A stretch of 64,000 bases of DNA from an uncultured Flavobacteriia bacterium (GTDB lineage: Bacteria; Bacteroidota; Bacteroidia; Flavobacteriales_D; Crocinitomicaceae), in assembly GCA_903873915.1 (NCBI GenBank), contig CAIQQH010000012.1, positions 1 to 64,000 of the forward strand, given 5' to 3'. Position numbers and translations under genes: made by a program. The notes under the pieces were generated by a model that was given only the letters and a program-made list of their open reading frames with translations, made no database searches and was not told the origin of the DNA. Position 1 is the stretch's first letter; the number at the start of each line of letters is the position of its first letter. This document shows positions 5,342-47,398 of the stretch, piece after piece.

Positions 5342-6241
5342 ATGACTAAAAAACAAGCTTGGATTCATGCATTGCGCTTGCGGACCTTGCCCCTTTCCAT
5401 TTCGGGGATTATTCTTGGCTCTGCCTTAGCTTTCTACAAAGGTTTTGAAAATTATGTTGTGCTTGGATTCGCATTACTGACCACGCTTTTGTTTCAAATT
5501 TTATCGAATCTAGCCAATGATTTGGGGGACAGTATAAAAGGCACGGACAACGCACAGCGTGTAGGTCCGACAAGGGCGGTACAATCTGGGGTGATCTCTC
5601 CTAAAGAGATGAAAAACGCAGTGATACTTACTTCAGTGCTAAGTTTCATTTCTGCTGGAGTTCTTATTTATTTTGGCACCAAAGAGATGCCTCAAGCGAC
5701 AATTTTCTTTTACATCTTCCTGGCCATTGCTTGTGTTGCCGCTGCCATCCTTTATACCGTGGGAAAAAAGGCCTATGGCTACAACGGCTTGGGTGATTTG
5801 ATGGTGTTTCTATTTTTTGGCGTAGTGAGTGTCATGGGCGTTTATCCGCTTTATGCGAAAGCAATCGATTGGACCATCCTCATGCCTGCAAGTACCATCG
5901 GCTTATTGAGCACAGCCGTTCTGAATTTGAACAACATGCGCGACCGTGTCAATGATGCCAAATCTGGCAAACGCACCTTGGTTGTGATGATGGGTGGTGA
6001 TTTGGCTAAAATCTACCACGCATTCCTGATCCTAATTGCTTTAGGACTTCACCTCTATTTCATCAGTGAATTGCACCATGAGATGGCATTCATCGGGCTG
6101 CTACCCGGAGTTGTATTGGCGCTCCATGTGCGCAAAGTCATGCAAACAAAGAATCCCAGAGATTTTGACCCGGAATTGAAAAAGGTGGCACTCTCTACTT
6201 TTGCCTTGGCACTGCTGACGGCGATTGGATTGCTTGTGTAG
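5342..6241 (+). CDS. menA: 1,4-dihydroxy-2-naphthoate polyprenyltransferase
   Basis: A 299-residue UbiA-family membrane prenyltransferase that attaches the isoprenoid tail in menaquinone synthesis. The first Asp-rich motif is NLANDLGDSIKGTDN (about residues 59-73), followed by RVGPTRAVQSG. The second is NNMRDRVNDAKSGKRTL (about 198-214). Eight or nine hydrophobic helices are visible. MenA, rather than another UbiA member, fits the downstream menC and the family's GPTRAVQSG signature. The stop codon abuts the mosaic repeat at 6241. Confidence 0.92.
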   Translation: MTKKQAWIHALRLRTLPLSISGIILGSALAFYKGFENYVVLGFALLTTLLFQILSNLANDLGDSIKGTDNAQRVGPTRAVQSGVISPKEMKNAVILTSVLSFISAGVLIYFGTKEMPQATIFFYIFLAIACVAAAILYTVGKKAYGYNGLGDLMVFLFFGVVSVMGVYPLYAKAIDWTILMPASTIGLLSTAVLNLNNMRDRVNDAKSGKRTLVVMMGGDLAKIYHAFLILIALGLHLYFISELHHEMAFIGLLPGVVLALHVRKVMQTKNPRDFDPELKKVALSTFALALLTAIGLLV

Positions 6242-6370
6242 ATTTGATCCCTACGGGAATTTGACACTGCGTGATTTGTTGCTGCGCAATTTGATGCTTC
6301 GCAATTCAGAATTTGTCGCTGCGCGATTCAGAATTTGATCCCTGCGGGAATTTGACACTACGTGATTTGG
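6241..6370 (+). repeat. Mosaic repeat R1, hairpin-word section
   Basis: This stretch is a chain of about 15-17-bp words, each TTTGnT or TTTGnC plus a tiny hairpin plus AA or GA. The hairpin cores differ but pair: CCC-TGC-GGG, CAC-TGC-GTG, GC-TGC-GC, GC-TTC-GC. Two near-identical 38-40-bp copies lie at 6241-6278 and 6331-6370. Related words appear inverted at 17083-17133 and in the 36.5-36.7 kb gap. Confidence 0.8.
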
Positions 6371-6417
6371 AAATTGGTTAGTTTTACATTCAAAAAGTCT
6401 TTTGTTGTTTAGACACA

Positions 6418-6494
6418 GTAATTCGTAACTCGTAACTCGTAATTCGTAATTCGTAACTCGTAATTCGTAACTCGTAATTCGTAACTCGTAACTC
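6418..6494 (+). repeat. Mosaic repeat R1, GTAAYTC heptad array
   Basis: Eleven consecutive perfect 7-bp units, each GTAATTC or GTAACTC, without a gap. The inverted form (GAGTTAC) recurs as a short, broken run at 47141-47173. Confidence 0.95.
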
Positions 6495-6537
6495 GTCATT
6501 TTTAATTCTTAATTCTTAATTTTCCACTCTTAATTCC
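6495..6537 (+). repeat. Mosaic repeat R1, TTAATTC heptad section
   Basis: A run of TTTTTAA/TTCTTAA/CTCTTAA 7-bp words ends a few bases before the menC start codon, so the mRNA leader of menC, if transcribed from menA, is made of repeat. Similar runs occur at 14908-14945 and 17131-17168. Confidence 0.85.
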
Positions 6538-6540
6538 AAC

Positions 6541-7563
6541 ATGAAGATCACCTTACAACACTTCCCACTTCACTTCAAAGTTCCAGCTGGCACAAGTCGT
6601 GGAGTCATGACGGAGAAGCAAAGTTGGATTGTGCGGATCTCAGATGGAATATCTGAAGGAATTGGCGAAATAAGCGTTATTGAAGAGCTATCCCCTGAAT
6701 ATGTTTCATTTGAGGAATTTGAGCAGACCATTGCTCATTTTCTGTCATGTTTAGAAAATGGATGGAACGAAAATTTAAATCAAGCCTTGCAACCTTATCC
6801 TTCGATATTGTTTGGGATTGAATCTGCCTTGCTCGATTTGAAAAATGGTGGAAAACGGATTTATTTCGATAATGCATTTGCCCGAGGACAGCAAAAACTT
6901 CCGATCAATGGATTGATTTGGATGGGGTCAGAGGCCTTCATGGCTGAACAAATCGCGCAAAAGCTTGCCTCGGGATTCACGACAATAAAGATGAAAATTG
7001 GGACGATGGAACTAAACGCCGAACTTGCACTTCTGCAGTCCATTCGAAAGCAGTTTTCAAAGGATGAAATCACCCTACGTGTTGATGCCAATGGCGCTTT
7101 TGATGTGGAAACAGCTAAAGTGGTGCTTCAAAAATTGGCAGTTTTGGACATTCATTCGATTGAGCAACCCATCAAAGCAGGCAACATCGATGACATGAAA
7201 ATGTTGTGTTTGAGCACTCCGACGCCTATTGCGCTTGACGAAGAACTGATCGGGATTTACAACAAAGAGGAGAAAATTAAACTTTTGGAAACCATACAAC
7301 CGCAGTACATCATTCTGAAACCAAGTTTGCATGGTGGTATTTTTGGGACACAGGAATGGATTGCTTTGGCGGAAGAACGAAACATTCAATGGTGGATGAC
7401 CTCAGCCTTGGAATCGAATGTTGGTCTAGAAGTAATTTGTCAGATGGCGGGAGAATATTCAAATTCACTGCCTCAAGGTTTGGGAACAGGTTCGCTCTAC
7501 ACGAACAACAGTGACTCTCCCTTAACAGTCGCTGATGGACTTATTTATCGGAAATTGAGTTGA
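6541..7563 (+). CDS. menC: o-Succinylbenzoate synthase (enolase superfamily)
   Basis: A 340-residue enolase-superfamily enzyme that dehydrates SHCHC to o-succinylbenzoate in menaquinone synthesis. Visible are the catalytic KMKIG (KxK), the metal ligands in DANGAF, EQP and LDEEL, the second catalytic lysine in IILKPS, and WWMTSALESNVGL plus QGLGTGSLY, which are characteristic of MenC rather than dipeptide epimerases. It follows menA in the same direction across a 299-bp repeat-filled gap, and the two may form one pathway unit. No TAnnTTTG element is obvious directly upstream. Confidence 0.9.
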   Translation: MKITLQHFPLHFKVPAGTSRGVMTEKQSWIVRISDGISEGIGEISVIEELSPEYVSFEEFEQTIAHFLSCLENGWNENLNQALQPYPSILFGIESALLDLKNGGKRIYFDNAFARGQQKLPINGLIWMGSEAFMAEQIAQKLASGFTTIKMKIGTMELNAELALLQSIRKQFSKDEITLRVDANGAFDVETAKVVLQKLAVLDIHSIEQPIKAGNIDDMKMLCLSTPTPIALDEELIGIYNKEEKIKLLETIQPQYIILKPSLHGGIFGTQEWIALAEERNIQWWMTSALESNVGLEVICQMAGEYSNSLPQGLGTGSLYTNNSDSPLTVADGLIYRKLS

Positions 7564-9075: not shown

Positions 9076-10194
9076 TTATTTAATCACTTTCATGGTCATC
9101 ATTCCTTTTGAAGAATTGATCACCAAGAAATAGGTGCCAGATAAAATTGCCTCTGTATTCATTGACATTGAAACTGAATTTTCAAGTGTCGCCGTTTTCA
9201 CGGTGCGACCAGCCATATCAATTAAAGATACTGTTCCAATTAGCTCTTGTCCGAAAGATACATTCAATGATGTTCCAAACGGATTCACAGCTACCAATCC
9301 TTCTGTGTTCAATTCGTTGATGCCTACAGAGCTGTACTGAACCTGATCATGGATAATAATTGTGTTTACACCATTCGCTTTCTGAGCACAGAACAAGATC
9401 AATGTTGCTCCATAAATGCCTCCATTCGCAGGATTTGTAATCCCATAAGCTACCGTGTATTGTGCGAGAACTGTTCCTCCATTGCCCCAAACGGTCCAAA
9501 CTGCAGCAATTGAATCTACACTCGTTGTATAAAAGTTCGTAATGGCTGCTGAATCCGCATCTGCATAGATAAATCCACAATCAGTGATTACTGTCGTGTA
9601 TAATGAATCAGAGATTGTTCCATTCGGGAAGCTGTTGTTTGAAAAGACAAGCACAGAATCGATCGGTGCTGAAGCATCTACTACAGCTGCATCGCTGCAA
9701 CTTACACACCCGTTGGCGTCAGTTACACACACTGTATACGTCGCTGGACACAAACCTGTCAATGTAGGGCCCGTCGTCACTGCATTCGACCATGTGTAGC
9801 TGTATGGCGCTGAACCACCTGTTGCTGTAACTGTTATCGTGCCGTCGCACAACATCGCGCTTGTTGCGTCTGTTGCTGTTGCTGATGTTGAAAAGTTCAC
9901 GCAAGGATTAAATACTCCTGAACCGATGGTAAAAGTCAAAGTCATATTTCCATTGGCCGTTGTAAATGTTACTGAGTAGGTTCCTGCACACAAGCCAGAA
10001 ATTGAATTTCCACCTTGTTGAAGCACCATTCCTGTTCCCATCCATACTTCATTCGTTGCAACGAGTGCAGAATCAATGGTTGCTGTTCCGTCACACGCTG
10101 CCGGACCTGAGGTGTTTTGTGTAATGATTGGATTCTGAGCGAATGCCAAAATTGTCATGAAGATAAATGACAAAGAGAATAGAATTTTTTTCAT
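9076..10194 (-). CDS. Secreted T9SS type A cargo protein with SprB-like repeat
   Basis: A 372-residue protein with a clear signal peptide ending LAFAQ at about residue 20. I chose ATG 10194 because it begins this signal; an in-frame ATG 60 bases upstream would add an implausible basic extension. About residues 95-170 resemble an SprB repeat (CDGTITVTATGGSAPYSYTWSN, then GLCPATYTVCVTDANGC). The last 80 residues form a T9SS type A sorting domain, with a GTYFLVINSSKG strand and a lysine-containing end. Its role is probably surface adhesion or gliding-associated; the substrate is unknown. It has its own terminator. Confidence 0.85.
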   Translation of the reverse strand: MKKILFSLSFIFMTILAFAQNPIITQNTSGPAACDGTATIDSALVATNEVWMGTGMVLQQGGNSISGLCAGTYSVTFTTANGNMTLTFTIGSGVFNPCVNFSTSATATDATSAMLCDGTITVTATGGSAPYSYTWSNAVTTGPTLTGLCPATYTVCVTDANGCVSCSDAAVVDASAPIDSVLVFSNNSFPNGTISDSLYTTVITDCGFIYADADSAAITNFYTTSVDSIAAVWTVWGNGGTVLAQYTVAYGITNPANGGIYGATLILFCAQKANGVNTIIIHDQVQYSSVGINELNTEGLVAVNPFGTSLNVSFGQELIGTVSLIDMAGRTVKTATLENSVSMSMNTEAILSGTYFLVINSSKGMMTMKVIK

Positions 10195-10280
10195 CTGATT
10201 GGTTTTAGTTTGGCGTAGACGCACAAAATTGTCTTTGCGTTGCGCAATGTACATTCTTTTTTTAATACAAATTATTTTTT

Positions 10281-12401
10281 TTATTTGTAATCAATAACGC
10301 GTTGTAATCCGATGCGCTTGCGTGAAACATCTATTTCCAAAATCCTTACCTCCACATGTTCGTGCAAGGAAATAAATTTCGACGGTTGATCGACATAGGT
10401 ATTGGCCAAATTGGATTTGTGTATGAGGCCATTTTCTTTGATGCCTATATTTACAAAAGCACCGAAGTCAGTCACGTTGGTCACAATTCCAGGCAAGACC
10501 ATCCCCACTTTTAAATCATCAATCGTGCGAATGTGTGCATCAAATTCCAAGACTTTTGCTTTCTTCCGTGGATCGCGCCCTGGCTTTTTCAATTCCTTGA
10601 TGATGTCGTCAAAGGTATATTGATCAATCTCTGGGAAATCTGTTCGAACGATAGATTTCAAGAGCTCATCATTGCCAATTAATTCCTTCAGGTCCACTTT
10701 TACTTTCTTGGCCATTTTATTCACCAAAGTATAACTTTCGGGATGCAGAGCTGAATTGTCCAAAGGGTTTTCACCATTACGAACGCGCAAGAATCCTGCA
10801 GCTTGTTCGAAGGCCTTGTCCCCCAAACGCTTTACTTTTTTCAATTCTGCACGCGATGTGAATCCGCCAATTTCCGAGCGATAGGCCACGATACTTTCAG
10901 CCAATGTGGGACCCAAACCGGAAACATATCCGAGTAAATAAGGAGATGCCGTATTTAAATCCACTCCAACCGTATTCACACAAGAAACCACCACATCGTC
11001 CAAGGCATGCTTGAGATCTGACTGATCGACTTCGTGCTGGTACTGTCCTACTCCCACTGATTTTGGATCAATCTTTACCAACTCCGCTAGAGGATCCATC
11101 AAACGACGGCCAATAGAAACAGAACCGCGAACAGTCACATCGTAATCAGGAAACTCTTTTCGAGCAATCGAACTCGCCGAATAAATGGAAGCGCCATCTT
11201 CACGCACAGAATAAACTTCTAAGTCGCGATCGAATCGAATGCGTTTCACAAAAGCGTCTGTCTCTCGTCCAGCCGTTCCGTCACCGATGGCGATTACTTC
11301 AATTTTATAGGCCTGAACCAATTGAGCGACCTTCGCTTGCGCTTGAGCGGATTCATTTTGGGGTGGATGCGGATAAATGGTCACATTGGTCAACAAATCA
11401 CCAGACTCGTTCAGACAAACCACTTTACATCCTGTTCGAAACCCTGGATCAATTGCTAGTACACGCTTTGATCCCACAGGTGCCGCAAGCAAGAGCTGAC
11501 GAAGGTTCGAAGAAAACACTTTAATCGCTTCAAGATCTGCTTTTCGCTTGTACTCATTCATGAGTTCATTTTCCAATGACGGACACATCAAGCGCTTGTA
11601 AGCTTCCTTGCATGACGCAGCCACCACATCGGCGCAGGCATCATTTCCTCGGACAAAAAACCGTTCCAACTGTTCGATCGCTTCCTCTGCTGAAGGGTGC
11701 GCCTTGAGTGATAAAAATCCTTCACGTTCCGCGCGCACCAGAGCCAAAAAGCGGTGAGATGCACATTTATATAGAGGTTCAGAAAAATCAAAGTAATCCC
11801 GGTATTTCGCTCCCTCAATTTCTTTTCCTTTCACCATTTTGGATTGCAATACCGCCCTACGGGCAAATAGCTGACGCACACGCGCTCGAGCTGGCGCACT
11901 TTCGTTGATCCATTCGGCCATGATGTCCATCGCACCTTGAATGGCTGAAGCTTCATCCTCCACATCCCCTTTTACAAAGCGCTCTGCCATCTGATCTGGA
12001 TCGCCACCCCGCTGCGACATAATCATCTTCGCCAATGGTTCCAATCCCAATTTTTTCGCTTTGTCCCCACGTGTTTGCTTGCGTTGTTTGTAGGGCAAGT
12101 AAATATCTTCCAATTCAATAGAATCAAAACAAGCTAAGACCTTTTCCTTCAAATCGCCCGTTAATTTTCCTTGCTCCTCAATGGATGACAAAATGGTCTT
12201 TTGACGCGCAATGATTTCATCGTGTTTTTTGGCTAAATCGCGAATTTTTGCAATTTCCACCTCATCCAAAGCCCCCGTCATTTCCTTGCGGTAACGCGCG
12301 ATAAATGGAACCGTTGCACCTGAATCTAGCAAGTTTAAGGTGTTGTCCACTGACCGTTTATTGAGTCCACTATGTGTAAAAATGAAGGCGCTTTTTTCCA
12401 T
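10281..12401 (-). CDS. Tex family RNA-binding transcription accessory protein
   Basis: A 706-residue Tex homologue. The N-terminal helical domain includes TVPFIARYRKEMTGALDEVEI. The YqgF/RuvC-like nuclease-fold domain carries LAIDPGFRTGCKV and IAIGDGTAGRETD. Tandem HhH units (LNTASPYLLGYVSGLGPTLAESIVAYR) precede the C-terminal S1 domain from about residue 630 (GMVLPGIVTNVTDFGAFVNIG). I start at ATG 12401, which matches family N-termini, rather than the in-frame ATG at 12440. Tex influences transcription and the stress response. It is divergent from the rlpA-like gene. Confidence 0.93.
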   Translation of the reverse strand: MEKSAFIFTHSGLNKRSVDNTLNLLDSGATVPFIARYRKEMTGALDEVEIAKIRDLAKKHDEIIARQKTILSSIEEQGKLTGDLKEKVLACFDSIELEDIYLPYKQRKQTRGDKAKKLGLEPLAKMIMSQRGGDPDQMAERFVKGDVEDEASAIQGAMDIMAEWINESAPARARVRQLFARRAVLQSKMVKGKEIEGAKYRDYFDFSEPLYKCASHRFLALVRAEREGFLSLKAHPSAEEAIEQLERFFVRGNDACADVVAASCKEAYKRLMCPSLENELMNEYKRKADLEAIKVFSSNLRQLLLAAPVGSKRVLAIDPGFRTGCKVVCLNESGDLLTNVTIYPHPPQNESAQAQAKVAQLVQAYKIEVIAIGDGTAGRETDAFVKRIRFDRDLEVYSVREDGASIYSASSIARKEFPDYDVTVRGSVSIGRRLMDPLAELVKIDPKSVGVGQYQHEVDQSDLKHALDDVVVSCVNTVGVDLNTASPYLLGYVSGLGPTLAESIVAYRSEIGGFTSRAELKKVKRLGDKAFEQAAGFLRVRNGENPLDNSALHPESYTLVNKMAKKVKVDLKELIGNDELLKSIVRTDFPEIDQYTFDDIIKELKKPGRDPRKKAKVLEFDAHIRTIDDLKVGMVLPGIVTNVTDFGAFVNIGIKENGLIHKSNLANTYVDQPSKFISLHEHVEVRILEIDVSRKRIGLQRVIDYK

Positions 12402-12465
12402 GAATGAATGGTCTTTTTGAAATAAAATTGTTGTAGGCAAAAACTAGTTTACCTATCTTGCCCGA

Positions 12466-12473
12466 CAAATTTA
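12466..12473 (-). promoter_or_regulatory. Possible -7 element of the tex gene
   Basis: TAAATTTG lies on the minus strand in the 79-bp gap between the divergent tex and rlpA-like genes. No convincing -33 element is seen; a matching site would fall inside the rlpA-like reading frame. Confidence 0.35.
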
Positions 12474-12480
12474 GCGTTTC

Positions 12481-12837
12481 ATGAAGAATTATCTCATCGC
12501 CATTTGCGCTCTTTTCTTTATTTCTTTTACCCTTCAACAAGTAATTGAACAAGGAAAGGCAAGTTATTATGCTTCCCAGTTTGAAGGCAGACGCACATCT
12601 TCAGGTGATATCTTTCGTCAGGATAGTTTAACTGCCGCGCACAAAACTTTGCCATTCGGAACGCGCGTATTGGTGAAAAATCTCAGCAATGACTCTAGCG
12701 TTATTGTTAAAATAAATGACCGGTTAAGTAAAAGTTCGCCACATGTCATTGATCTTTCGTTGAAGGCGGCGAAAAAGCTTAATTTTGTCAGACAAGGAAT
12801 CACCACGGTGACCATAGAAAAAATAGAACAATTATGA
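12481..12837 (+). CDS. RlpA-like double-psi beta-barrel protein
   Basis: A 118-residue exported protein with an N-terminal hydrophobic segment (residues about 4-18). The DPBB core is QGKASYYASQFEGRRTSSGDIF, then TAAHKTLPFGTRVLVKNLSN and VIVKINDR. The catalytic-type aspartate corresponds to the one in KINDR. RlpA family members are lytic transglycosylases acting on denuded peptidoglycan at the septum. It lacks the C-terminal SPOR domain of enterobacterial RlpA, so septal targeting is uncertain. It overlaps the next gene by ATGA. Confidence 0.88.
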   Translation: MKNYLIAICALFFISFTLQQVIEQGKASYYASQFEGRRTSSGDIFRQDSLTAAHKTLPFGTRVLVKNLSNDSSVIVKINDRLSKSSPHVIDLSLKAAKKLNFVRQGITTVTIEKIEQL

Positions 12838-14709: not shown

Positions 14710-14945
14710 CGATGGACAAAAGACAAAAGACAATCCTTCTTCGCTCAATGAGCTTCGAAAGACAAAAAATCGACAACTCTGTGCATCAATCAACAAAAAG
14801 AAAGTCGTAAACTATTTCCCCCGCCGGAGCGCTGTCCCGAGAGCCACGATGCGGTGGGGACTATTGGGGAGGAACATTAATTTAGCAAACCCACCCCACC
14901 AGCCCCTCATTTTTAACTCTTAATTTTTAATTCTTAATTTTCATC
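14705..14945. repeat. Mosaic repeat R2
   Basis: This gap after the GNAT gene contains, in order: a GTCTTTT-type heptad run in inverted form (14715-14742, GACAAAA words); a TTCGAAGCTCA/GAGCGAAGAAG palindromic word shared inverted with 47335-47362; a GC-rich hairpin (14819-14859); and a TTTTTAA/CTCTTAA heptad run (14908-14945). No gene is seen from 14710 to 14975. Confidence 0.8.
14819..14859. other. GC-rich hairpin within R2
   Basis: CCCCGCCG (14819-14826) and CGGTGGGG (14852-14859) pair with one G-U wobble around a 25-base loop. The base composition is strikingly richer in G and C than the surroundings. No U-tract follows on either strand, so it is not a standard terminator. Confidence 0.5.
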
Positions 14946-14975: not shown

Positions 14976-15551
14976 GTGCATTGCATAGAAAACAAAAAAA
15001 TTGAAAAAGAGAACTACAGTGAATCCGCTTTAGAAGCTGGTGAATATGTAGAATGTGAATTCCATTTTTGTGATTTCTCAAATTCATCCTTGACTGGGAT
15101 AAAGTTTGATGCCTGCACCTTTGTGGAATGCAACCTCAGTTTGGTGAAGCTTTCAGGGGCTTCTTTTCAGGATGTGACCTTCAATCGCTGCAAAATGTTT
15201 GGTCTTCACTTTGAGGAATGCAATCCGTTCGGCTTGAGTTTCACCTTCAACAACTGTCAGCTCAACCACTCCTCATTTTACCAATTGAAGATGAAGAAAC
15301 AGCTCTTTTCAAGTTGTCATTTGGAGGAGGTTGATTTCACCGAATGTGAATTGATGGAAGCCAAATTTAGTGAATGCAACCTCATCGGGGCGCGCTTTGA
15401 AAACAGCAATTTAATCAAAGCCGACTTGAGCACTGCAGTGCATTACACCATCAATCCGACCATTAACCGCATTAAAAAAGCAAAATTCGCCTTGATCGGA
15501 ATTCCAGGATTATTGACCACCTTCGACATAGTCATCGATCGAAATGTGTAA
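14976..15551 (+). CDS. Pentapeptide-repeat protein
   Basis: A 191-residue protein made largely of pentapeptide-type units, for example CEFHFCDFSNSSLTGIKFD, CTFVECNLSLVKLSGASF, CELMEAKFSECNLIGARF and ENSNLIKADLS. These fold as a right-handed quadrilateral beta-helix. Many cysteines stack in the repeats. The start is GTG at 14976, and no ATG gives a fuller product. The C-terminal 30 residues (NRIKKAKFALIGIPGLLTTFDIVID) are the capping segment seen in McbG/Qnr-like proteins. A DNA-mimic gyrase-protection role is possible but not shown. It lies directly upstream of another repetitive beta protein. Confidence 0.85.
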   Translation: MHCIENKKIEKENYSESALEAGEYVECEFHFCDFSNSSLTGIKFDACTFVECNLSLVKLSGASFQDVTFNRCKMFGLHFEECNPFGLSFTFNNCQLNHSSFYQLKMKKQLFSSCHLEEVDFTECELMEAKFSECNLIGARFENSNLIKADLSTAVHYTINPTINRIKKAKFALIGIPGLLTTFDIVIDRNV

Positions 15552-15600
15552 ATTCATCACGTATTCATTCATTCGCAACCAAAACCTTAAACCTATACCC

Positions 15601-16065
15601 ATGAAAAGCACATTCACATTTATAATTATCCTATTCTCACTTTTTCAATCACAGGCACAAACCAAAGTGTACAAAGGAAATTCAACAAGTTACTCCGACT
15701 GTCTTTTTACGGTGAGCAACGACAAGATCTACACAGGAAACTCCACGAGCTACTCCGACTGCCGCATGACCATTTCAGGAAATAAAGTCTACCAAGGGAA
15801 TTCGACCAGTTATTCCGATTGCTTGTATACTGTGAGTGATGGCAAAATCTATCAAGGCAACTCCACCAGCTATTCCGATTGTTTATACACCATCAGCAAC
15901 GATAAAGTCTACAAAGGCAACTCCACCAGCTATTCCGATTGTTTATTGACCTTCAACGACGGTAAAATTTACAAAGGAAATTCGACAAGTTATTCCGATT
16001 GCATCATGACAAGCAACGGGATTTTGGCTGATGCGGTGATGGCGATTTTGGCGGGACCGTATTGA
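15601..16065 (+). CDS. Secreted GNSTSYSDC-repeat protein
   Basis: A 154-residue protein. ATG 15601 opens a signal peptide (residues 1-20, ending SQAQ); an upstream in-frame ATG at 15544 overlaps the previous gene and would bury the signal. The mature part is six 20-residue repeats (residues 22-140) of the form K-[VI]-Y-x-GNSTSYSDC-x-x-T, then a hydrophobic tail ending ILAGPY. One cysteine, one asparagine and a Ser/Thr pair recur at a 20-residue period, as in a stacked beta-solenoid or a small closed beta-barrel. No function is recognised. A paralogue without a signal lies at 45770-46180. The stop codon abuts the stop of the convergent DUF4846 gene. Confidence 0.85.
   Translation: MKSTFTFIIILFSLFQSQAQTKVYKGNSTSYSDCLFTVSNDKIYTGNSTSYSDCRMTISGNKVYQGNSTSYSDCLYTVSDGKIYQGNSTSYSDCLYTISNDKVYKGNSTSYSDCLLTFNDGKIYKGNSTSYSDCIMTSNGILADAVMAILAGPY
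15664..16020 (+). repeat. Six in-frame 60-bp coding repeats
   Basis: The repeats are exact in length (60 bp) and in the nine-residue core, but the codons of that core differ between copies at most positions. The DNA is therefore old and selected at protein level, not a fresh duplication. Confidence 0.92.
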
Positions 16066-17002: not shown

Positions 17003-17168
17003 TGGACTAAAGACCCTTCCGCATATGCGGAATAAAAGACAAAAGACCGCTGCGCTTAAAGACTTCAATCATTCGTTGAATTGCCTTCGGCAACAAATTC
17101 CGTCAGGATCAAATTGCGTAGCAACAAATTTGTAATTCTTAATCCTTCATTTTTAATTTTTAATTTTC
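17003..17168. repeat. Mosaic repeat R3
   Basis: From left to right: a 68-bp block (17003-17070) that is a close inverted copy of 47274-47340 and includes the perfect palindrome TTCCGCATATGCGGAA (17017-17032); inverted hairpin words (17083-17133); then a TTAATTC/TTAATTT heptad run (17131-17168). The heptad run extends into the 3' end of the gene at 17153. The rest of the 16945-17152 gap holds no gene. Confidence 0.85.
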
Positions 17169-17719
17169 TTCATCCTTTCCTCAATGCGCTTGGTCACCAA
17201 TTGAAACAACAACTTCGCGTCCTTTTCATTGAGTTTTCTGCCGAAACGAATCATTTTTCCGTTGTATTCAAATTCGATCCGTTCGCCACCGCGAATCCAA
17301 GGTGATGCTTCCCATACACGTTGAATTGAACGTTCCTCGGGCACTGACATAGCCATCTTATTGATGTTTTCAAAATAGTAAGGCACTGCCCTGCCGTATT
17401 TTTTGATGGACTTTTTATAGGTCAAGGATGCCTCGTCGATCTTGATCATTTCCTTGCCCCAGAGGAGCCAAAAAAACGAGCGAGCGACCTTAACCGCATA
17501 ATACAACCAAAAAGTAAGAAATATCAGTAAAATAATCTCTTCTTGACTTGTTAGTTTCAAGGTGAAATACGCCCAGATCACAACGGCACCGATGGTCAAC
17601 CACATGGAAAGCCATGCGCCCATGAGCCCTTTTACCCAATAGGTGTTCTCAGGTTCGATCATAATCGTTGTGCGAATCTTGTCTTCACTGAAGCTAACGC
17701 GTTCTCCAATCCATTTCAT
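17153..17719 (-). CDS. Membrane protein with PH-like cytosolic part, unknown function
   Basis: A 188-residue protein with two membrane segments (about residues 32-57 and 62-86), then a soluble C-terminal half (MIKIDEASLTYKKSIKKYGRAVPYYFENI) that resembles bacterial PH-like or DUF304-type beta domains. ATG 17719 is preferred over one 36 bases upstream because TACCTTTG-N4 precedes it. Its last residues (KKIKN) and the stop codon are encoded inside the R3 heptad repeat. No pathway is suggested by the neighbours. Confidence 0.72.
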   Translation of the reverse strand: MKWIGERVSFSEDKIRTTIMIEPENTYWVKGLMGAWLSMWLTIGAVVIWAYFTLKLTSQEEIILLIFLTFWLYYAVKVARSFFWLLWGKEMIKIDEASLTYKKSIKKYGRAVPYYFENINKMAMSVPEERSIQRVWEASPWIRGGERIEFEYNGKMIRFGRKLNEKDAKLLFQLVTKRIEERMKKIKN

Positions 17720-17723
17720 GGCG

Positions 17724-17756
17724 CAAAGGTATTCGATTTTCGTTGATGGACACAAA
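17724..17756 (-). promoter_or_regulatory. Promoter, predicted leaderless, built on a terminator T-tract
   Basis: Minus strand: TTTG (17753-17756), 21 bases, TACCTTTG (17724-17731), CGCC, then the ATG at 17719. The TTTG is the end of the T-tract of the terminator at 17760-17777. Confidence 0.65.
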
Positions 17757-36502: not shown

Positions 36503-36716
36503 AACTCGAAGTAGAATTAAGTCTATTGTCCTTTGTCTTTCGTCCCTTGTTCAAAATGCCATCAAATTCCCGAAGGAATCAAATTCGCAGTTGTCCCCAG
36601 TATCAATTTATTTCAGCCAACTCGAAGTAGAATTAAGTCTATTGTCCCTTGTCCTTCCGTCCCTTGTCCAATATGGCATCAAATTCCAAATTGCCTCCGG
36701 CATCAAATCCTAGTAA
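36503..36716. repeat. Mosaic repeat R4
   Basis: Two direct copies of a 68-69-bp block (36503-36570 and 36619-36687) share AACTCGAAGTAG, AATTAAGTCT, then GTCCYTT-type heptads, then a hairpin word (ATGGCATCAAATTCC). Between and after them lie further inverted hairpin words (AAATTCCCGAAGGAATC, AAATTGCCTCCGGCATC). The rest of the 36456-36752 gap holds no gene. Confidence 0.85.
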
Positions 36717-36752
36717 CCCAAGAAATAACTACTTTTACAAAAATATTTTATC

Positions 36753-45769: not shown

Positions 45770-46180
45770 ATGAGCCAAAAAATTTACAGTGGAAACTCGA
45801 CAAGTTATTCAGATTGTCAATTCACAGCAGATGGTAATAAAATCTACCGCGGAAATTCAACAAGCTACTCCGATTGTTTGTATACAATTGATGGGTACAA
45901 GGTTTACTCCGGGAATTCCACCAGCTACTCCGATTGTTTGTTTACCATTAGTGGTGAAAAAATATATCAAGGAAATTCTACAAGCTATTCAGACTGTATC
46001 TATACGATCAGTGGAAACAAAGTATATCGTGGGAATTCAACGAGCTATTCGGATTGTATTTTCACCTTCGATAACAACAAAATTTATCAAGGAAATTCTA
46101 CAAGCTATTCGGATTGTGTAGCTACGATTGATGGTATGTTTAAATATTGGTTACTTGTAATTTTAGTTGGACCTTACTGA
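45770..46180 (+). CDS. Cytosolic GNSTSYSDC-repeat protein
   Basis: A 136-residue protein, without a signal peptide, of six 20-residue repeats (residues 4-122) with the invariant core GNSTSYSDC, K-[IV]-Y before it, and a variable T-[IVA] strand after it. It ends in a hydrophobic FKYWLLVILVGPY, similar to the ILAGPY tail of the secreted paralogue at 15601-16065, so the tail is a family feature. An AAAGGA-like sequence precedes the ATG, rare here. The last repeat is followed by a hydrophobic segment that might insert in a membrane. Function unknown. It is flanked by the paa operon and an ECF sigma factor. Confidence 0.85.
   Translation: MSQKIYSGNSTSYSDCQFTADGNKIYRGNSTSYSDCLYTIDGYKVYSGNSTSYSDCLFTISGEKIYQGNSTSYSDCIYTISGNKVYRGNSTSYSDCIFTFDNNKIYQGNSTSYSDCVATIDGMFKYWLLVILVGPY
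45779..46135 (+). repeat. Six in-frame 60-bp coding repeats (paralogue)
   Basis: The period and core are the same as in 15664-16020. Codons of the nine-residue core differ between copies, as they do in the other gene. Confidence 0.92.
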
Positions 46181-47084: not shown

Positions 47085-47370
47085 ACACTTCGAATTCTCG
47101 AAAGGAGCAAATTTCCATTAAGACATCAAGACTTCTAAAAGTTACGAGTTTCAAATCACGAGTTACGAGTTAGTTTTAGCTTCGATTTAACGCTTTGAAG
47201 GCATTTAGTTAGATTTTTTCACGAAGTTGCAATTCTTCAAATCAGTATGAAAATGCTCTAGAACTCGAAGTAAGATTAAGTCTTGAAGCGAAGCGGTCTT
47301 TCGTCTTTTATTCCGCAAATGCGGAAGGGTCCTTTGTCCTTCGAAGCTCAAGGAGCGAAGAAGTGTCTTT
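47085..47370. repeat. Mosaic repeat R5
   Basis: The 383-bp gap holds inverted GTAAYTC words (GAGTTAC at 47141-47173), AACTCGAAGTAAG with GATTAAGTCTT (47262-47283), the 67-bp block at 47274-47340 that is an inverted near-copy of R3 and includes TTCCGCAAATGCGGAA (47311-47326), and the TTCGAAGCTCA word shared inverted with R2. No gene is seen from 47034 to 47416. Confidence 0.85.
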
Positions 47371-47398
47371 TGTATTTCAAAGATTTTCATTAGTTTTA
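47369..47398 (+). promoter_or_regulatory. Promoter of the PorP/SprF gene
   Basis: TTTG (47369-47372), 18 bases, TAGTTTTA (47391-47398). The predicted start is about 14 bases before the ATG at 47417. Confidence 0.4.

Follow-up and report, generated by a model that had tools for sequence, protein, structure and literature searches.

Repeat content of the menA-menC gap and of other gaps in the window

The window, a stretch of 64,000 nucleotides from an uncultured Flavobacteriia bacterium of the Crocinitomicaceae (GenBank assembly GCA_903873915.1, contig CAIQQH010000012.1), carries menA, whose product belongs to the UbiA family, and menC, whose product belongs to the MenC/enolase family. The two genes are separated by a gap of 299 bp (6242-6540), in which we located the hairpin words, the eleven GTAAYTC heptads and the subsequent TTAATTC heptads that a preliminary description of this DNA had reported (Table 1). 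Its gap length was also correct, although its coordinates (6241-6537) were off by 1-3 bp. The CTNCG-loop hairpins span 6251-6362, and TTAATTY copies lie at 6502, 6509, 6516 and 6530. The spacer between the hairpin chain and the GTAAYTC array is mostly conserved in four sister species, with the repeats on either side differing.

The same vocabularies, in both orientations and shuffled order, had been reported from gaps at 14.7, 17.0, 36.5 and 47.1 kb. We did find heptads of the GTCYYTT type, AATTTGA hairpin words and runs of TTAATTY across these gaps and in both orientations, but not every vocabulary is present in every gap. At 17.0 and 47.1 kb GTAAYTC forms no array and is limited to one or a few degenerate units. 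The repeats at 36524-36720 consist of one block in two copies. The run at 17132-17167 covers the stop codon of a minus-strand gene (17153-17755; in gene sense ...AAAAATTAA / AAATGAAGGATTAAGAATTAC). A known structured RNA family is ruled out by the absence of any Rfam match at the gathering score anywhere in the window, and a CRISPR-like or phage array by the units themselves, which are bare heptads without spacers. The window also contains two genes for 6-fold beta-flower (Bflower_3) proteins with 60-bp internal coding repeats (15544-16065 and 45770-46180), one of which comes after a pentapeptide-repeat gene.

Table 1. Repeat features of the window, with positions counted from its first nucleotide
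Feature	Position	Strand	Remark
Seven hairpin words, each an AATTTGA-type heptad followed by stem-CTNCG-stem, in a chain	6242-6373	+	Clade-wide stem covariation
Loops of the seven CTNCG hairpin words	6251, 6267, 6282, 6297, 6319, 6342, 6358		menA-menC gap
Spacer, GGAAATTGGTTAG...	6374-6417	.	Between hairpin chain and GTAAYTC array
GTAAYTC heptads, eleven exact copies	6418-6494	+	
TTAATTC/TTAATTT heptads, degenerate	6495-6537	+	Reach menC start at 6541
GTCTTTT-type heptads (reverse complement GACAAAA)	14710-14768	-	Hairpin CTTCGCTCAATGAGCTTCGAA at 14739-14759
TTAATTY/TTAACTC heptads	14908-14943	+	Upstream of pentapeptide-repeat gene
GTC heptads	17010-17055	-	Hairpin TTCCGCATATGCGGAA at 17017-17032
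AATTTGA/ATTTGTT hairpin words	17075-17131	-	
GTAATTC/TTAATTT run	17132-17167	+	
GTCCTTT/GTCCCTT heptads (+) with ATCAAATT hairpin words	36524-36720	.	Hairpin words are reverse complement of AATTTGAT
Degenerate GARTTAC/GTAAYTC-like units, scattered	47095-47180	.	
GTCTTTT/GTCCTTT heptads	47275-47372	+	Hairpins TTCCGCAAATGCGGAA (47311-47326) and CTTCGAAGCTCAAGGAGCGAAG (47339-47360)

Heptad arrays are dispersed and share a period of 7 bp

The genome to which the window belongs (G000) is a 2.82-Mb MAG of 137 contigs, some of which end at repeats, and genome-wide counts given here rest on pattern searches and on 0.71 Mb of stretches. A search for the words across this genome, suggested in the preliminary description, found them elsewhere too, with 38 occurrences of three consecutive GTAAYTC against none for a reversed control. 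Within 426 kb of G000 the only enriched periods were 7, 14 and 21; period-7 segments numbered 31, compared with 0 in shuffled sequence, and other periods gave 0-3. Two sister species share this period spectrum, with G014 having in addition a few segments of periods 8 and 12. The proposal that different words share one 7-bp period is thus borne out in three species.

The vocabulary of the heptads is small, comprising GTAAYTC, TTAATTC, TTAGTAA/TTACTAA, TTAATTT and GTCYYTT, with rarer members such as CACTAAC. Arrays are mostly intergenic, only 2 of 71 lying inside ORFs of at least 110 aa. GTAAYTC triplets occur in 11 of the 26 species of the genus; across the order their distribution is patchy, with 23 of 299 genomes and 10 of 65 genera having them. 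The arrays sampled from other genera consist of heptads, several of them beginning at a stop codon, and are devoid of the hairpins of the five-species clade described below. The congeners G021 and G005 use different words; most segments in G021 (7 of 8) have period 7, and G005 has few arrays. Congeners also hold a handful of period-8 or period-9 arrays. A separate block, CATGTATAAACCACCCCTTGCCCCTCCACGAGGGGATTTTTAT...CTTGCTGAGTGTCA, recurs in repeat gaps in both orientations (locus L048, 4862-5647; locus L039, 19202-19708) and is probably another dispersed element.

Arrays are oriented towards stop codons

Taking GTAAYTC as the canonical orientation, we found the 3' side of the array to be the side nearer to a gene boundary in 26 cases versus 7 in G000, 22 versus 5 in G014 and 12 versus 3 in G018; gene calls here are simple ORF calls, of which single boundaries may be off, and the counts of the three species are not independent because many orthologous sites are shared. 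Where the nearest gene boundary lies 3', 30 arrays face a stop codon and 14 a start codon, and within 30 bp the numbers are 24 and 4. Canonical arrays ending at most 30 bp from a stop codon number 15, 11 and 4 in G000, G014 and G018, where simulation gave means of 5.5, 2.7 and 1.0, and arrays of the opposite orientation number 1, 0 and 0. Read in gene sense, the stop codon is followed by TTACTAA or TTAAGAA heptads, then by TTACGAR and often by a GTGGC hairpin. Heptads are commoner in convergent gaps (11 of 43) than in divergent ones (6 of 80), and only about 4% of genes have an array. This anchoring to stop codons is the most surprising aspect of the heptad arrays.

Covarying hairpins are nested in the heptads

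The hairpin words with the form ATTTGA-stem-CTNCG-stem were gathered by flank (ATTTGA) and loop (CTNCG) only. Among the 108 obtained, two stem positions were Watson-Crick paired in 92 and 93 words, whereas independence of the two sides would give about 37; these counts include related copies and do not represent a probability. When any S...S combination was allowed in the pattern AATTTGATSCCTNCGGSAATT, only complementary pairs were present among the matches listed. In G014 and G018, ACC-GAA-GGT, GCC-GAA-GGC and GCT-GAA-AGC alternate along one tandem chain. At the level of sequence, these data demonstrate that the stems of the hairpin elements are kept by compensatory changes.

A second family, the GTGGC hairpin, has the form GTGGCTTCGAG(N)CCTCAGCCAC, also given as GTGGCTTCGAG...CTCAGCCAC, and occurs in lengths of 23, 32-34, 41 and 51 nt, growing by added inner hairpins. 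Its DNA fold contains a 2-nt TC bulge, with energies of -5.1 to -8.8 kcal/mol. Covariation of its outer stem is weaker, 43 of 55 against 30 expected at the innermost position and less further outward, because the loose anchor TTCGAG...CTCA admits chance matches. In 22 of 30 complete copies heptads flank the element on both sides, and the junction is fixed, TAAYTC^GTGGC...GCCAC^CAAAYTC, with the consensus CAAAYTCGTA on the 3' side. The five clade members hold 37, 87, 29, 23 and 24 copies, two congeners 1-3 and 19 congeners none, and the control likewise gave 0; a genome from another family contains two base forms of the element.

The sisters differ in the presence of single copies. At the men locus, a 41-nt GTGGC element is located in the GTAAYTC region of G014, G018 and G016 and is missing from G000 and G004, while at L048 two copies lie inside the heptads of G000 and none in those of G014. 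Such differences could equally reflect hairpins that were ancestral and then lost in some sisters. Neither a target-site duplication nor a transposition intermediate was seen for the hairpin elements.

Repeat-bearing sites persist while their contents turn over

We compared orthologous gaps between G000 and its sister genomes, all of them MAGs that are broken at repeats. Across three sister species, gap lengths agree within 5 bp for 286 of the 315 gaps without heptads and for 2 of the 20 with heptads, the latter having a median difference of 91 bp; the median difference between sisters for gaps without repeats is 0. Changes can be resolved to whole units. At one site G000 has two TTACTAA and two TTACGAG where G014 has four and three, a difference of exactly three heptads (+21 bp), and at another the word itself is exchanged with the period of 7 retained, AACTAAT in four copies being replaced by CACTAAC in nine. 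Since most repeat-bearing sites are common to the sisters, the sites persist while their contents change.

The preliminary description had suggested examining the same gaps in relatives, and the menA-menC gap is an example of this turnover. It is filled in five species whose MenA proteins are 92-100% identical, and the number and order of words differ in each. In twelve congeners with 56-70% MenA identity the spacing of the two genes is -4 to 3 bp, and in two more the gap is about 70 bp and free of heptads. As the genes nearly touch in the twelve distant congeners, the filling was acquired. In five other congeners (G005, G007, G012, G017 and G021) the gap measures about 120-220 bp and holds arrays of period 8 or 9 whose words are unrelated; more than one lineage has therefore filled this gap. 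These period-8/9 arrays, at L066, L067, L064, L065 and L070, read GAATTCGC, GAGAATTT, TTGTAATG and TTCAAATG and are independent of the heptad clade.

Origin of the two layers

The preliminary description treated the repeats as a single mosaic family. Its hairpin words and their recurrence hold up, but heptads stand alone in other genera and the hairpins are almost confined to one clade, so the two layers are separable. A mobile cassette shared by both is ruled out, as other genera have heptads without these hairpins and the two layers change independently of each other between menA and menC.

On balance we favour an account in which the gap consists of heptad arrays grown by slippage or recombination together with REP/SDR-like hairpins, mostly as selfish or tolerated DNA. 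The first layer would comprise related 7-bp words (GTAAYTC, TTAATTC, TTAGTAA, GTCYTTT, AATTTGA) in tandem arrays, with slipped-strand mispairing or unequal recombination adding and removing whole units. Such arrays would be long-lived at a genomic site with their words turning over, and would survive mostly just after stop codons and in a single orientation. The second layer would comprise short palindromes, namely the ATTTGA-stem-CTNCG-stem words, the GTGGC hairpin and the hairpins of the GTC arrays, that may insert into, or be copied with, the heptads and be maintained as hairpins. The arrays are most likely selfish or tolerated DNA in the 3' flanks of genes and may have no function. Slippage as the growth process fits the steps of whole units, and movement of the hairpins by transposition, beyond deletion or recombination, is suggested by their presence and absence between sisters. 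Of the two explanations offered earlier for the common period, one mechanism of growth is favoured over one binding geometry. Plain slippage leaves unexplained both the orientation tied to gene ends and the recurrence of one word shape (GTNAYTC-like) in distant species; stop-codon-anchored polarity and the exclusive 7-bp period are the part that present explanations miss.

It is possible, though we hold it only tentatively, that the hairpins are REP/REPIN-like and are moved in trans by a resident single-copy Y1 (IS200/IS605-type) transposase, with the heptads as target. A Y1_Tnp gene encoding 144-148 aa is present in single copy in G000, G014, G004 and G016; its 3' flank opens with heptads in all four, with a GTGGC element there in G000 and G014, and the bulge of this hairpin as well as the REP-like palindromes flanking several congener Y1 genes (for example GTCCCTACGGGAC and GACTTCTCTGAAGTC) would suit such a transposase. 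However, the gene was not found in G018 (91% complete) by family and protein search despite 24 GTGGC copies, the element lies on one side of the gene only and in two of four carriers, and adjacency of a gene to an array is not rare in G000. The protein scores 28.6 bits against the NCBIfam model for REP-associated transposases (cut-off 80) and 77.9 against the IS200 model (cut-off 55). The congener Y1 genes with flanking REP-like palindromes (GTCCCTACGGGAC, GACTTCTCTGAAGTC, ACCCTGAAGGGGTTG) are those at L154, L155, L156, L157, L158, L162 and L163, apparently with one kind of palindrome per transposase lineage.

We think it unlikely that the arrays serve regulation or RNA processing at mRNA ends, acting through stop-codon context, 3' UTR protection or an RNA-binding-protein array. 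Such elements would be expected to keep a strongly fixed orientation and place with respect to stop codons and to be enriched in convergent gaps, as is seen here, and a TAACTGA set of Flexibacter has been described with the same polarity (PMC4679880). Against this, content and unit number differ among sisters with 92-94% identical MenA, the share of genes with an array is small, and distant congeners have no array between menA and menC. In a further reading, which we judge rather improbable, a dedicated process coupled to transcription or to stop codons would build the heptad arrays at the 3' ends of genes, through templated or enzyme-driven addition of 7-bp units with fixed strand polarity, and the arrays would serve as landing pads for hairpins moving via single-strand or RNA intermediates.

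We consider very unlikely a reverse-transcriptase route, by which hairpin RNAs would be copied and inserted via an RNA intermediate, possibly by a resident retron RT. An orthologous retron-type RT does adjoin a repeat-filled gap in G000, G014 and G018, its 3' end abutting the array, and homologues are present in G004 and, as a fragment, in G016; but RT relatives also occur in congeners without GTGGC/CTNCG hairpins, G021 has heptads and no RT, and the clade represents a single phylogenetic event. The retron lies outside the window (L038, contig C56 of G000, 9577-12592; orthologous in L114 and L165). Its RT of 359 aa has RT-Protease_XI as best PADLOC matches and Ec67/Ec86 as PDB relatives, and is 79-90% identical in three relatives, with a fragment in a fourth. 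A candidate msr-msd upstream of the RT lies between the arms of a perfect 12-bp inverted repeat, GAGAGCCGTTGC...GCAACGGCTCTC (fold z -7.4); a DnaB_C-like helicase and a protein of 198 aa that matched no family come before it. Neither the RT nor the Y1 transposase tracks the heptads across species, which rules out either as their driver, and as mobilising agent of the hairpins both are unproven and neither is accepted here. An artefact of assembly, or noise from simple sequence, in a MAG with contigs ending at repeats deserves practically no credence and is already refuted for the heptads, as other MAGs have the same vocabularies at the same sites and the one-contig genome G130, of another genus, has heptads.

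Relation to known repeats

The preliminary statement that no named family fits was too strong, since tandem heptamers are a described kind of repeat (PMC4692102, PMC4679880). TAACTGA heptamer direct repeats were described in Beggiatoaceae, cyanobacteria and five Bacteroidetes, upstream of start codons, and were proposed to form an RNA-binding-protein array (MacGregor 2015, PMC4679880). The arrays reported here resemble them as intergenic 7-bp direct repeats, patchy among close relatives, polar towards gene boundaries and facing shorter, repeat-free gaps in relatives; several words coexist here, as other heptamers accompany TAACTGA in Gramella and Elizabethkingia (PMC4679880). They differ in their many related words, in stop-codon rather than start-codon anchoring, not being placed forward just upstream of start codons, and in their nested covarying hairpins. 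The exact TAACTGA family is ruled out, with zero TAACTGA doublets in 1.97 Mb of sampled sequence from G000, G014 and G018 versus 190 GTAAYTC doublets.

Further parallels are the heptameric LSSR/STRRs of Calothrix, Nostoc and Xanthomonas (PMC4692102), where a 7-bp unit is over-represented and intergenic and varies strongly in length and sequence at the same gene pairs of close species, as in Xanthomonas and Nostoc. The Calothrix heptamers and the long simple sequence repeats of Mrazek 2007 are cited in PMC4692102 and PMC4679880, and PMC4679880 also relates the suggestion by Mrazek et al. that the length of 7 nt reflects contact with the polymerase. Here we likewise find a 7-bp excess, mostly intergenic, with copy number variable among close relatives; the words are AT-rich, without G-quadruplex-type G-runs, and belong to a different phylum.

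In Nostoc punctiforme, small dispersed repeats (SDRs) were reportedly recognised (by Elhai et al., in 2008) as small hairpins embedded in heptamers. Going by this description, our hairpins are similar in their small size, in their compensatory stem changes, in being nested in tandem heptamers (22 of 30) and in apparent recent mobility, and differ in reaching 51 nt, in their modular build and in their Bacteroidota host. REPINs are described, and SDRs also named, in PMC3116915; shared with REPIN/REP-RAYT systems are palindromic intergenic elements and a single-copy Y1 transposase in most carriers, but here the transposase is missing in one carrier and falls below the RAYT model cut-off, and the elements lie in heptads.

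Our literature search found no paper on heptads and nested hairpins combined in Bacteroidota. To our knowledge, heptamer arrays with nested hairpins are undescribed in this phylum. The repeats are a real, strong and genome-wide feature, in which known kinds of repeat occur in a new combination and lineage, and they look like a Bacteroidota counterpart of the cyanobacterial heptamer repeats and small hairpin repeats. The same architecture may have arisen in two phyla. Through the exclusive 7-bp period and the orientation set by stop codons, the old puzzle of why long tandem repeats of bacteria favour 7 bp becomes testable, in a clade whose five related species hold different states of the same sites.
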